A stretch of 64,000 nt of DNA from NCBI GenBank assembly GCA_903813345.2, contig CAIIXF020000004.1, positions 15,447,196-15,511,195 of the forward strand, in the 5' to 3' direction. The notes under the pieces were generated by a model. It saw only the letters and a program-made list of their open reading frames with translations. It was not told the DNA's origin and searched no databases. The stretch is from Owenia fusiformis (taxonomy: Eukaryota > Annelida > Polychaeta > Sabellida > Oweniidae). How positions within the stretch are numbered: position 1 is the first letter of the stretch; each line of letters starts with the position of its first letter. Of the stretch, positions 11,707 to 64,000 are shown one piece after another. The position numbers and the translations under genes were made by a program.

Positions 11707-14700
11707 CTGAAAATGAATTAAATTTACACCAATCAACATTTTTTAAACATTACAAATAATTTTACAATTGTTCCAAAAATTTTAGAACTCTTAAATTTGA
11801 AATAAGAAAAACAATATCTAAATTACAAGTGAAATAATTCGGACAGTAAAATTCTCAGCAATTCCTTCAAGTTCGAGGACAACTCAACACCTTAATGTGG
11901 GGGAAGTGTAACAGCTAACTTACTTGATGTAACTGGAAATTATCATAGACCTCTTTGAGATCCTGCATGTGATATTGGTTGAGGATGACAATGTTGTCCA
12001 GTTTCTTCTGAATCTTTCCTGCACAGTCCAGGCAGTGGACTACAAACTTTTTGTCCTGCTCAGCCACAAATAGTATGTTGAAGACCTCCACCTAAATTAT
12101 AAAATGCTTGAATGTATTATTTTTTTTCTCCAAATTGGTTTAGACAGGATCTAATCGGGAGACTTATTACGACTTTTTTTCGTTATATCTTCAAACTAAG
12201 TCAACGAAATAATAAGTGCAATGAAGGCTGACTATAATTTCACATGTTCACATCCATGTTCTACAAAACAATACTTAACCTCTATTGAACTTAACCTCCC
12301 TATTGAACCTAACCTCCCTATTGAACTTAACCTCCCTATTGAACTTAACCTCTCTATTGACTAAAAGAGGTAACTTACCTCGCATTTGTCACAATAGTGG
12401 GCAGCCTCTCCCTTCTGTTTGTCATGGTATTTAATTGTCTTACCAAGACCCTTGATGTAGTCTATGATCAACTGTACTTGCTTTAATGTACGACATAAGC
12501 AATACCTGAAATAAAATATTCTCTGTAAATTTGAGGTGCACTGTGTATGGTAAATGAACCACGTGTATGGGGACTACATTAGACTGTTTAATTATTGTTT
12601 ATTCCTTCCTTATACTAAACAGATTAAAACATGAAGTCGTTTATTCGTCAAAAGTTACATATTCATATTCTGGACCCCATTCTTGTACCATTCTTACTTA
12701 CGTTTCTTGGTCCACTGTTAAATATTTATATTTCTTAAAGTTGCATTTCTTAAAGTTGCATTTCTTAAAGTGCATCATAAAGTTACGGACGATTTGTTAA
12801 GTTAGGAAAGTTAAGAAAGTCATGCCTGCTCTCGTTCATAGTAATACTAGTAGCACATCTGACCCTTTCATAACTTTGCAAACTACAATGGCATAACTTG
12901 AAAGACGTGCATTATGAAACTTACTTCATTTGCTGGAACAATGCCATATCTGATATCCGTACATTCCTGGCAAGGTTCCAAGTGAGATGAATCATGGGAA
13001 CGATCGACTTGTAGCTTTGGAGTTTGTTCCATTCGTATCTTTCAACTGCGGATGAGTATTGCTTGGCATTCAGAGGACCTACATTCCAGGCTATATTGTT
13101 ACACCAGCCCTAGAATCAAAGAATTACAATACACACCAGCCCTAGAATCAGAGAATTACAATACACACCAGCCCTAGAATCAGAGAATTACAATATACAC
13201 CAGCCCTAGAATCAGAGAATTACAATACACACCAGCCCTAGAATCAGAGAATTACAATACACACCAGCCCTAGAATCAGAGAATTACAATACACACCAGC
13301 CCTAGAATCAGAAAATTACAATACACACCAGCCCTAGAATCAGAGAATTACAATACACACCAGCCCTAGAATCAGAGAATTACAATACACATCAGCCCTA
13401 AAATCAAAGAACTACAATACACACCAGCCCTAGAATCATAGAATTACAATACACATCAGCCCTGGAATCATAGAATTACAATACACACCAGCCCTAGAAT
13501 CATAGAATTACAATATACACCAGCCCTAGAATCAGAGAATTACAATATACACCAGCCCTAGAATCAGAGAATTACAATACACACCAGCCCTATAATCAGA
13601 GAATTACAATATACACCAGCCCTAGAATCAGAGAATTCCAATATACAAGCCCTAGGACCACATGTTAGTAATCTCATTATTTAGGGAGTTTGACCTCCCA
13701 ACTAATTTTAACAATGTTACAAGAGACTCAAATTTTCATAACTGCTTTGAGATAATACTAAACACCGATGAAAGTCATACTGTTCAGCTAATTTTTGATT
13801 TTTAACAATAATAGAAACACGTTGACCAAGGTGATACATACATTTTGGAAAATTTTCAAATTTTCTTAGTTTATGCAAAACTGGACAACAAGGTCCCATG
13901 CTAATATTATAAGCCCCATATAATAATGACAAAATCTCAAAATAAAGCCAAACTTACAATTGCTTGCACCCAGTGTACACAGCCAGCGTTAATCCAGACC
14001 AAATCTCCAGGTTTCTGAATGAACCTATAGACAGGGACATCTTCCTTGTATAGATCATCTAGTATAGGCCACCATGATCCTGTCAGGTAGTTGATGTTGT
14101 ACCTAAAATATACAGAGTGTTCTCATATGATAAATAAAGTTAACATGCAAAATGTCACTACCTGCCATTTGTTACAGATGCTCATCGCAAACACTGTCCA
14201 CAAAAATGTTTGAGACTATAAAAATATGTCATCACTTCTGGCAGTGACAAAACAATGGTATTGGAGATATATATTTTTAATATGCACAACTCCAAATTAA
14301 TATATAAGTGATGATCCCAAAATTACAATGGCTTTCAAGTAGCTGTTTTTGTTGTTGTTTGTTATCATATATGATTTATGGAACCTGAACAACTAACATG
14401 ATTGGAAATTTAAATGTTTCTCAAAATGTCTATAATGTTAATCTAAAATTACTTTAAAGTTACTTAAAATACAGAGGGCATGGGATTTATAATTTTAATT
14501 CAATATTTATGTTTCCTGAATGATTGCATATTTAGGCAAAATACATAGTACATGTACATATAACCATTGTATGGCATTAAAATACTACAATTATGTACAA
14601 TTTTCAGAAGGATTTAATAATTGCAAATATGATTAAAATACTGAAGTTGCATCTACTGCTCATTGTATAATCTTCAGACTTCAATTACAAAGGGCATTAT

Positions 14701-17700
14701 GATGCGATAGTTCTACCTTTCACAAAGGGCATTAATAATGCCCCAATACTGTTCTGGAACAGCAAACCACTCACAGTCCCCAGGTCCTATGTTAATGTTC
14801 ACAGCGCAGAAGTTATTATTTTCTTGGTGGCCTACAAAATTGGTGAATTTCATTACAAATGTGCTGTATTGAAATGATAGCCATTTTGAATGTTGCATCT
14901 TGGTTATTGGAATCACAGTCGAATTTACTTGCGGTGACAAGCTGGTGAACAATTTTGATCATTTTCACCCAGAGTGCATCATTCAAAATGGCGAGCATTT
15001 TCTTTTTTTCATACCTTTCGCATATATTATGTATTGCTCCCCAGTACGATTCTGGCACTGCGAACCATTCACAATCTCCCGGCCCAATATTTATATTCAC
15101 AGAGCATAAGTTGTTGTTCTCCTGATGACCTATGAAAGAATAAAATAAATAATTACTTATTTTTGTCACACAAATAAATAATTATTTATTTTGTTTGGTA
15201 CCCTCACCTACATGTAATAAATACATTCAACAACAGTAATAAAAATATATATATTTATCTTAAATATTCTTTGAGATTAAAAGGTTTCTTTCAGAACTGC
15301 AAAATACATAAACATTGAAATATTTTTTTATGTTTTAACTTTCATATTCAAATTTTGATATTTATCAATTTAGTTCTAAAATCACTCACCAGGGGTTCTG
15401 CATCCTGGCACTTTCATATAAAGTTGCACGCTGTTCATTCCTAATATGGTATGTCCTACGTGGCTCAGCATATTGCTAGCCGAAACTAACTTGGTGAATG
15501 CTGGGAGTTTGGATATTTCATGTAATTGTGGTTTCCATTTTCGTTCGTCAGAGAGATCAACATTGGTACCAAACTTTATCATCTTTTTAGCCTTTTTCCT
15601 AAAAACATATTAAAAATAAAATTGGCAAAGTTTCAGGGCAATGATGGCGAACAATGTTTAATGTACCCAGTGATCTCCTCAGGATTTTTCTCAGGTTGGT
15701 GCAAAACTCAGGTGGGTGCTGCGCCCACTTGGTTTTATGCTGGGAGATCACTGGACCACCAATGTAACTAATTTTCTTTTGTTAATTTGAGCACAGAGTA
15801 CAATTTCTAAAAAATTGGGTGAGGAAGGAGGAAAATCAGAAATGTAAATTGATACATTTATAAGTATCTAAATATGTAACTGGTAACTGGTCATCACTCA
15901 AGCAATCATGAAACATGAAAACTTCTTGCGATGTGTGATTTATTAACGGAGTAAAAATTATTCAAAAATTTAGAATAATCAAGATTTCCTACCCTTCCCT
16001 TCCTCTTTTTATCAAAACTACTATCCTAAATAAGGCTAATATTTTATATAAATACGATATTATAGCATATGCAACTACTGTATGTTTTCTTTCTACAATA
16101 TTGTATTTGTACAACTTTTTATACAGAGTAAAAAAAAAAAAAAATCAAAAATTGAAAAAAAAAGATTCCCTACCCTTTGCCATTAGAATCCTCGTCTTTG
16201 TCACGTTGAATTCCACGAACTTTTTCCGTTTCTTCTTTGAGAGATTCTTGGAAGGATGACGCTTGGTATTGAGCATACTTTGTAACTGTGGTGTGACTTC
16301 TCGTGCTGGCACAGTGCCAAACATTTGCCCCGAACTGGTCCCTGTTTTCATCGGGGCCTTGGAGTCTCTGAAATCAAAGTTGTGTTGTTTTGTTAGATTT
16401 CAAATAAATGTGCACATAATCCTTGAGATGTAAAAATATTACAAAATGACTTCAAATAAGACACTGGTCCTTTTGAAAAATGCACCATACTTATTAACAT
16501 AATGGTGAAATACTTCAGCTACAAAATAATAAAAACTGTGTTAATGCAAGGAATCATTCTTATTTTACCAGGAATTCAAGTTCCAGGAAAGCAATGGGAA
16601 CGAGATTTAACATTGAAGAGTATAAGCATGAGTTCAACCCTCACATGAGCGAATAGGGTAATCAGAAGTGAAAGAGACAATGATGCAAGACTTGCTTACC
16701 CGAGTTCTAAACTGAAACAGAAAATATTGGGGGGGGGGGGGGCAGAGACTTGATGCAACATTAATTAAAGAGTTTGAAATGTTTACCTGAGTTCTGACCT
16801 CACATGGGTGATCAGGGTTGGCCTCTACCAGGCTTTTAGTTGAGAATAGGCCCAAGTCTGAAAATATAAAATATCATATGTAATGATAGTATTATCTGAC
16901 ACATAATCCTTTTAAATCCTTTGAAGTAACAAATAAGCAAATATGAGGCATCAACATGCAAAATGTCACCACCTGACATTTGTTACAGACACTGACTGCC
17001 AGGCGCTGAACACCAGAGACTATAAAAGTATGTCACAAATTGGGGTGGTGACATAATATATATTTTAATATTCACTAAACTAAATATTTCTGTGTACAAT
17101 AAGTCAATGCATTACTGAAGGCATCACATGTATACTAACCAGTCCCAGTACATTACTAATAGGGTTAAAAAGCCATTAAATTATTTTGGTATAAATTCTC
17201 CTGGTCCTTAACTTCACCACAAAAAATGAAGAAAATTTTATCTATTATTTACTATATTTAGCTATTCCACGTATGACAGCCACAGGTTGGGACAGACAAT
17301 ACTGCTGAGGTTCTTTGGAGAAAGCAAGATATATAAACTTGACATACCTAGTTTTAATGCCCCTGCTATTCCACGTATAACAGCCACAGGCTGGGACAGA
17401 CAATACTGCTGAAGTTCTTTGGAGAAAGCATCCTTCTTACTTTCCAGCTGAAAGAAGAAAATTTCATCTTTAATCTTAAGCTTCATTGGAAAATATTGTA
17501 CTAAATAATCATATTTAGTACAATATTTGGCATGCAACTGTTGTATTTTTTTTTTTATTCCTAATTGCTTATTTCACTTTTAAACTCTACTTTGCACTTC
17601 AAAACTTGAAAAGCATTTTACTGACATACATATATGACCGTGATGCTCAATTTAGTCGGAAAAGATCATTTGTACACATTCTAAAATGTATTTTGAGTAA

Positions 17701-62582: not shown

Positions 62583-64000
62583 CTACAAATACATGAAAAC
62601 ATGAACATTTACTAATGACTATATTGCATGAATTACCCTTTATCATTTATACATAACCCCACATGTGCCTTTCTCGCCATTTCTGTTTTATTTGGACTCT
62701 GACAAAAATAATATATTTTCATGTCCCCAAAAAAGATTGCTTGGGCAAGAAACCAATTATCCACAGCAATTATTGTAGCCTTCTACTTGGCCTAACAACT
62801 GAGAGACGGGAACAACTAAAATGTTTAGATCAAAATGTCTTCTAAAGCCCAGAGCTTAGTAGTGACCATTATTACAATACCATGTGACACAGATTAACTC
62901 TTTATTAATAAGGAAGTAAATCAAATTATAAAGAGTTACAAAAATATATTTGGATACTCCTCAACTACTACAGCGGTGGCGGTAGGCATATATTTTTGTG
63001 AGTCATCATGACTCAGGTAGTTTAAAAAAAGTGAGTCACAAGAAAAAAAGTTGAGTCAAAGCTATAAAAGTGTTTTTCTTGAGTAAAAATGCATACAAAA
63101 TGTAGAAACCACATACAAAATCTATTTTTTGATTTTGTGCATACCTTTTATTGTACTCCTATAGCACATTAACAACTAACAATTAATTAATTAGGCAATT
63201 GCAAGAAAAATGTCACTATTAATCATCTGATTATCTGGTCCAGCGAGTCATGGGTGTGAATGGAGTGGGAGAGGAGTTTCTCCCTGTGTGGAGTTACACA
63301 AATTGGGGTCAAAGCGTTTCATGTTGAAATTCAACATTTTTGCAATCATTCCAAAGTCTAAAACGCCAATATAAGTCCGACCACAATACTGGGCATCATT
63401 TAAATTGAATACGGTAGAATCTTGTAATTATAGCTGATCAAATGAAACCGAAAGTAGATTTGTTTTCATACCTAATTTATCATCATTACCCCCCTTAATG
63501 TGCGATCGACTGGATTTTCATGTGCCCATTATCTATCTTCATAGGATCAGCTTCAGATCTAGTGAATCGAAGATCTTAACTTGAGGGAGTTAATTGAAAA
63601 TACTTGGTGAAAACTTACGATAGATCGGTCACTGTGAGCACCATTGATAAACCTACTGCGCATTACATCTGCGCATGCTGATGAAGGGGACGGCTCAAGG
63701 AAACTTGCTAACTTAGCGAAGGAATTTTGCGAACTTGCGAATGAAACTCAAGGTTCGTAAATCTAGTGTGTGAACATTCAAGGGAAGATTTTATGCGGTA
63801 ATTTAGATAAATATACGATCACTAAAATCCTTAGAAGGGAGTATGAAATTAATAAATTATTGTTCAATGTTATGTTCGTTTTATTGCATTTTTGATACGC
63901 CCCCTAGCAACGTGCTTCACGAGATAAACAAATCGAGGGATCGATCAATGTTTTCAAGTTTATCATTGAATCTGAATCACAGGGCTTTAAAAATTATATG
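62583..64000 (-). other. Upstream KDM6A intron or 5' region
   Basis: No further UTX exon was found here. A segment near 63619-63760 is richer in CpG and has a good minus-strand donor (CTATC before GTAAGT at 63617-63618), but its phase does not join the exon at 62582 as coding sequence. Confidence 0.4.

Follow-up and report, generated by a model that had tools for sequence, protein, structure and literature searches.

The window analysed here, a stretch of 64,000 nucleotides, carries on its minus strand a KDM6/UTX gene, whose enzyme takes a silencing mark off histones. Using tblastn with a human KDM6A probe (without part of the linker), we found colinear exons between position 62583, where TPR parts are encoded, and 11930, in the zinc-binding C-terminus, with the JmjC core in between. 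With the same probe, the colinear matches from 62583 to 22874 identify an upstream TPR part of the UTX type rather than the KDM6B type. Human residues 1–111 and several linker stretches of the probe had no tblastn match in the window, so the matched exons fall short of the gene's 5′ end and of parts of its middle. Most gaps in the probe alignment were closed by GT-AG junctions that restored the human alignment; junction fitting gave none for probe gaps 381–412 and 443–598, and doubtful ones after residue 188 (best score 14) and at 745–767. At E ≤ 0.001, the JmjC core matched 9 distinct PDB sequences, all of them KDM6A, UTY, or KDM6B. The iron ligands His, Glu, and His (human H1146, E1148, and H1226) are present, the first two as GHQE in each of two exon copies, A and B, and the third as VHW in the exon that follows them.

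Genome searches covered an assembly of 525 contigs with a total of 498.3 Mb. A peptide joining exon B to the exon after it had 3 matches, all of them exons of the KDM6/UTX gene, and a general JmjC model had 13, 3 of them within this gene. No second KDM6 gene was found in the genome with the core peptide, the assembly being one that may have gaps or masked stretches. From the matches of the core peptide and the JmjC model, KDM6 looks single-copy, assembly gaps allowing. The genome's two highest-scoring JmjC matches are on contigs C228 and C238 (62.2 and 67.6 bits, respectively), and an in-frame TAA occurs in the C228 match. Eleven homeobox matches fall between 17.97 and 18.47 Mb of contig C1, and another is at 18.96 Mb; in one of them the homeodomain is followed by KLTGP, a protostome mark of Lox5 type. 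A search for COX1 found no match in the genome. The host looks lophotrochozoan and is probably the annelid Owenia fusiformis, whose Hox cluster is reported on chromosome 1, with Post1 downstream (PMC9977687).

On the minus strand, the matched upstream exons for the TPR parts and the linker (15599–62583; tblastn and junction fitting) are followed by an exon at 15390–15598 (sequence and tblastn), which encodes KDM6 residues up to the Pro preceding the Gly-His-Gln-Glu motif and ends in the donor CTG/GTGAGT. The two copies of the iron-binding core exon come next, exon A at 15015–15129 and exon B at 14717–14831, separated by an intron of 183 nt (14832–15014; the A-B intron). The exon after the pair (13958–14102; sequence and tblastn) supplies the third iron ligand within VHWVQAI, and the following matched exons (11930–13109) encode the rest of the JmjC domain and the zinc-binding part, as far as the last human match. 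Exons A and B are each 115 nt long, with AG directly before and GT directly after, and have identical phases, each splitting a Gly codon after base 1 at its start and an Arg codon after base 2 at its end. They agree at 32 of 39 residues (82%) and at 80 of 115 bases. Each of these details had been given in the initial annotation, namely the two 115-nt exons with their coordinates, intact splice sites, same phases, and 32 of 39 shared residues, and each was reproduced here.

Joining the upstream exon and the next exon through either A or B leaves the JmjC core open, with no stop, and, read together with the adjoining exons, each copy matches PDB chains of KDM6A, UTY, and KDM6B. When A and B are joined to each other, the frame reads ...ERPPRK-stop; when both are skipped, it reads GTTSTT-stop, the TGA being the seventh codon. 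Reading the spliced frames therefore bore out the earlier statement that both copies and neither copy lead alike to a stop, and the frame allows exactly one copy in a productive transcript, as had been proposed. The two are adjoining internal exons that match in length and phase, resemble each other in sequence, and are bounded by GT-AG sites; their joint inclusion or skipping is unproductive. These are the features by which we recognized mutually exclusive exons, with likeness of length, phase, and sequence taken from a published human atlas (PMC5740500). No third exon copy was found in the 64 kb; low-stringency tblastn with both peptides otherwise gave weak matches (E of at least 0.42).

Splice-site strength was scored with a model of 13 donors and 13 acceptors of the KDM6/UTX gene, with leave-one-out scores. 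The set includes the donor after residue 188 and leaves out its acceptor; the acceptors 15598 and 14102 and the donor 15390 were taken from the sequence itself. The gene's 13 other donors scored 4.6–12.7 bits. Compared to these, the donor of exon A (5.0 bits) falls within the range and that of exon B (0.5 bits) lies below all 13. The gene's other acceptors scored 1.5–12.2 bits, with A at 5.0 bits and B at 2.8 bits, low and inside the range. On the window strand, 5.4% of GT dinucleotides score at least as high as A's donor and 30.8% at least as high as B's; the corresponding fractions of AG dinucleotides for the acceptors of A and B are 5.8% and 11.8%. Taken alone, B's donor thus stands barely above chance. 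Its weakness suggests that it depends on help from elsewhere or is little used, and argues against equal use of the two exons.

The differences between the copies are concentrated at silent sites. The 35 base differences fall at codon positions 1, 2, and 3 in the numbers 6, 3, and 26, and the 37 full codons comprise 9 identical ones, 21 with synonymous differences, and 7 with a changed residue; where A and B share a residue whose codon is degenerate, 21 of 28 codons differ. We compared codon models on the two sequences (37 codons, no outgroup DNA). With both copies equally constrained, omega was 0.035 and lnL −224.5. Leaving one copy neutral over the same time gave lnL −238.6, 14.1 units lower, so that full neutrality of one copy is rejected, and holding one copy at omega 0.3 gave lnL −228.1, 3.6 units lower, a gap too small to reject a milder relaxation of one copy firmly. 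The other copy's omega hit its lower bound in both unequal models. A run with slightly inaccurate codon frequencies agreed with this: fixed omega values of 0.5 and 1 were worse by 2ΔlnL 28.9 and 47.8, respectively. The fitted divergence time is poorly bounded from above, as expected when synonymous change is near saturation, and the duplication is therefore old. Residues equal to human KDM6A number 30 of 39 in A and 31 of 39 in B, and the likeness of A and B to each other is only slightly higher. Since both copies are old and have kept their protein sequence, both have most likely been translated. Together, these results lend strong support to the earlier proposal that both copies are functional coding exons, and such long selection on both copies as protein is strong, if indirect, support for mutually exclusive splicing.

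The residues that differ lie partly beside the cofactor. In the crystal structure of human UTX, a 2-oxoglutarate analogue contacts K1137, T1143, S1154, and N1156; the description of the site also names Y1135 and E1148, and lists H1146, E1148, W1166, and H1226 as key residues (PMC6052472). Each of the substitutions Y1135C and T1143I is reported to abolish the activity of human UTX (PMC3459986). H1146, E1148, N1156, and W1166 are kept in both A and B. All four cofactor contacts are present when copy A is used, and S1154 becomes Ala when copy B is used. At the positions of F1152 and S1154, the examined KDM6 chains, those of KDM6B included, have Phe and Ser, whereas A has Leu and Ser (the LCS version) and B has Phe and Ala (the FCA version). 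Each copy therefore departs from these chains at one position by the cofactor. Further residue differences between A and B are at 1172, 1176, 1178, 1179, and 1180. The two versions of the exon hint at two UTX forms with slightly different active sites, and the residue differences may change catalysis, the loss in B of a serine that contacts the cofactor being a concrete pointer.

Two predicted secondary structures flank exon A. Upstream of it, an AT-rich palindrome of 57 bases (15139–15195; 28-nt arms, 89% complementary) ends 8 nt before the exon's AG; its predicted fold is a hairpin of 21 bp (z = −3.08; 1 of 200 shuffles). Applied to the sequence before exon B, this test gave z = −0.61 (46 of 200). 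Of the gene's 13 other acceptors, 1 (17447; 17 bp) has a similarly scoring stem no more than 150 nt away. Downstream, the A-B intron holds an inverted repeat with 26-nt arms (14872–14897 and 14975–15000; 88% complementary). Its fold has z = −3.96, with 1 of 200 shuffles as stable; when both exons are included in the folded region, z is −3.47 and 0 of 100 shuffles reach that stability. With the 13-bp core stem formed as predicted, 22 nt would remain toward the donor and 49 nt toward the acceptor. Within the 64 kb, 75 of 1277 windows of the intron's length fold as stably.

The core motif of this stem, GCCATTTTGAATGNTGC, which lies in both arms, has 175 genome matches with at most one mismatch (95 forward and 80 reverse), compared to 2 and 0 for a reversed control. 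Two of the 9 listed perfect sites are the arms of the A-B intron itself. At the other 7 listed, a second 10-base core was found in none and an inverted repeat holding the motif in none; one has an unrelated palindrome. With 0 of 7 on either count, these sites point neither to a mobile element nor to a special splicing stem. A mobile-element origin of the intron's stem is therefore unsupported by them, and the motif may be a dispersed sequence of other origin. At 2 of these 7 sites, GCCATTTTGAATGNTGC adjoins CCCATAATGCA or CCCAGAATGCA, an arrangement that we take to resemble a promoter element.

We propose that the exon for the JmjC iron-binding core was duplicated in tandem long ago within this KDM6/UTX gene, and that its copies are used as mutually exclusive exons, a reading to which we give a probability of roughly 80% on the genomic evidence. 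By its frame, a productive transcript can hold A or B, never both or neither. Exclusivity would rest mainly on the reading frame and on nonsense-mediated decay (NMD), through which wrong splice products are presumably lost. The weak splice sites of B and the predicted hairpin beside A's acceptor suggest that the choice between A and B may be regulated. Both enzymes would have the same iron ligands and most of the same cofactor contacts, would differ at F1152 (Leu in A), at S1154 (Ala in B), and in the stretch 1172–1180, and might differ in their use of 2-oxoglutarate or in activity. Among the mechanisms of choice, we place the frame with NMD first and regulated weak sites second. As a possibility, the inverted repeat in the A-B intron could act in addition to the frame, looping the intron out and bringing donor and branch point too close together for A to be joined to B. 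The short distances left by the 13-bp stem and the stability of the fold, with or without the exons, would suit such a steric block. We rank it last and consider it improbable because 75 of the 1277 like-sized windows fold equally well and the core motif is dispersed, with 175 genome matches against 2 for the reversed control.

Other readings of the pair differ in what they make of exon B. It could be a fading relic, one copy of a duplication once used and now little used or unused, as its donor (0.5 bits, lower than 13 others) and its lost cofactor-contact serine would suggest, and the model with one copy at omega 0.3 is just 3.6 lnL units worse than equal constraint. A relic would, however, have kept 115 nt free of frame damage while its synonymous sites changed almost to saturation, and the models reject full neutrality; we regard this reading as unlikely. 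Alternatively, one copy, most likely B, could serve mainly as a poison exon whose inclusion together with A, or whose faulty joining, produces a stop, so that NMD reduces the amount of UTX. The stop soon after the A-B joint and the weak donor of B agree with this, but a poison exon needs no constraint on its protein, while neutrality of one copy costs 14.1 lnL units and is rejected, and B is stop-free with its iron ligands kept; we hold this to be very unlikely. The initial annotation had also raised the case of an assembly error in which two alleles or haplotypes are set in tandem, a case suggested by the tandem layout alone. Here, the copies are too divergent, differing at 30% of their bases with synonymous sites near saturation. 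The three introns around the pair share short matches at most (the best 16 nt, E = 0.009), and the DNA of exon B and of the A-B intron has no match elsewhere in the genome. The divergence of A and B rules this out for practical purposes.

Mutually exclusive exons that alter a binding or catalytic site occur in macroH2A1, which is a chromatin protein, and in JNK and PKM; to our knowledge, none of these is a histone demethylase. A close parallel is the motor domain of the muscle myosin heavy chain, for which clusters of mutually exclusive exons are described in invertebrates including annelids (PMC3912159). As here, those clusters are tandem exons of similar length and phase, each encoding one variant of part of a catalytic domain, and they are reported from lophotrochozoans and in place of gene duplication. 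Unlike the pair described here, they belong to another protein and have EST or cDNA support for many genes, whereas the UTX pair is known from genome sequence. A human atlas lists 1,399 mutually exclusive exons, and in 377 clusters (60%), the exon length is no multiple of three and including the exons together would shift the frame, with removal by NMD as a usual proposal (PMC5740500). Exons A and B resemble the atlas exons in their similarity, their equal frame and length, and this indivisibility by three; the atlas exons are backed by RNA-seq, in contrast to the UTX pair. The words KDM6A, UTX, and demethylase do not occur in the main text of that paper (PMC5740500).

The human KDM6A, UTY, and KDM6B proteins share the JmjC core with the gene in the window. 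In human, the core variants are in separate genes, whereas here one gene has two core exons. By titles and abstract openings, in a literature made up mostly of papers outside subscription, we found no exclusive or duplicated exons in UTX/KDM6A or other histone demethylases. The mechanism is already known; this literature gave no instance of it in an H3K27 demethylase's iron-binding core. UTX is described as having both catalytic and demethylase-independent roles (PMC3459986). If splicing swaps the iron-site exon, nature would supply two enzyme forms, identical except in 39 residues, by which these roles could be distinguished in vivo. It would also mean that the active site of a chromatin eraser can be tuned by exon duplication, where vertebrates use separate genes. 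A further step is possible and more doubtful than not: splicing could switch UTX, by stage or tissue, between two H3K27 demethylases that differ in their need for 2-oxoglutarate and perhaps oxygen. The A form would have the full set of contacts, and the B form would be low in activity, metabolically sensitive, or a demethylase-dead scaffold. Such a switch would be an old one-gene counterpart of the vertebrate split into UTX, UTY, and JMJD3.

Some smaller features of the locus were also seen. The exon at 13958–14102 has a KDM6B-like stretch of 14 residues (human KDM6A has FLMGSWWPNLEDLY), with Thr at the position of human M1190, which we take to be a site linked to oxygen affinity. By eye, the intron after the pair shows repeated units of about 30 bases resembling GGGCTGGTGTATATTGTAATTCTCTGATTCTA at window positions 13500–13690. 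Also by eye, an intron stretch at 15665–15760 has CAGTGATCTCC and GGAGATCACTG at its ends, an inverted pair about 85 bases apart, and is possibly a small mobile element.
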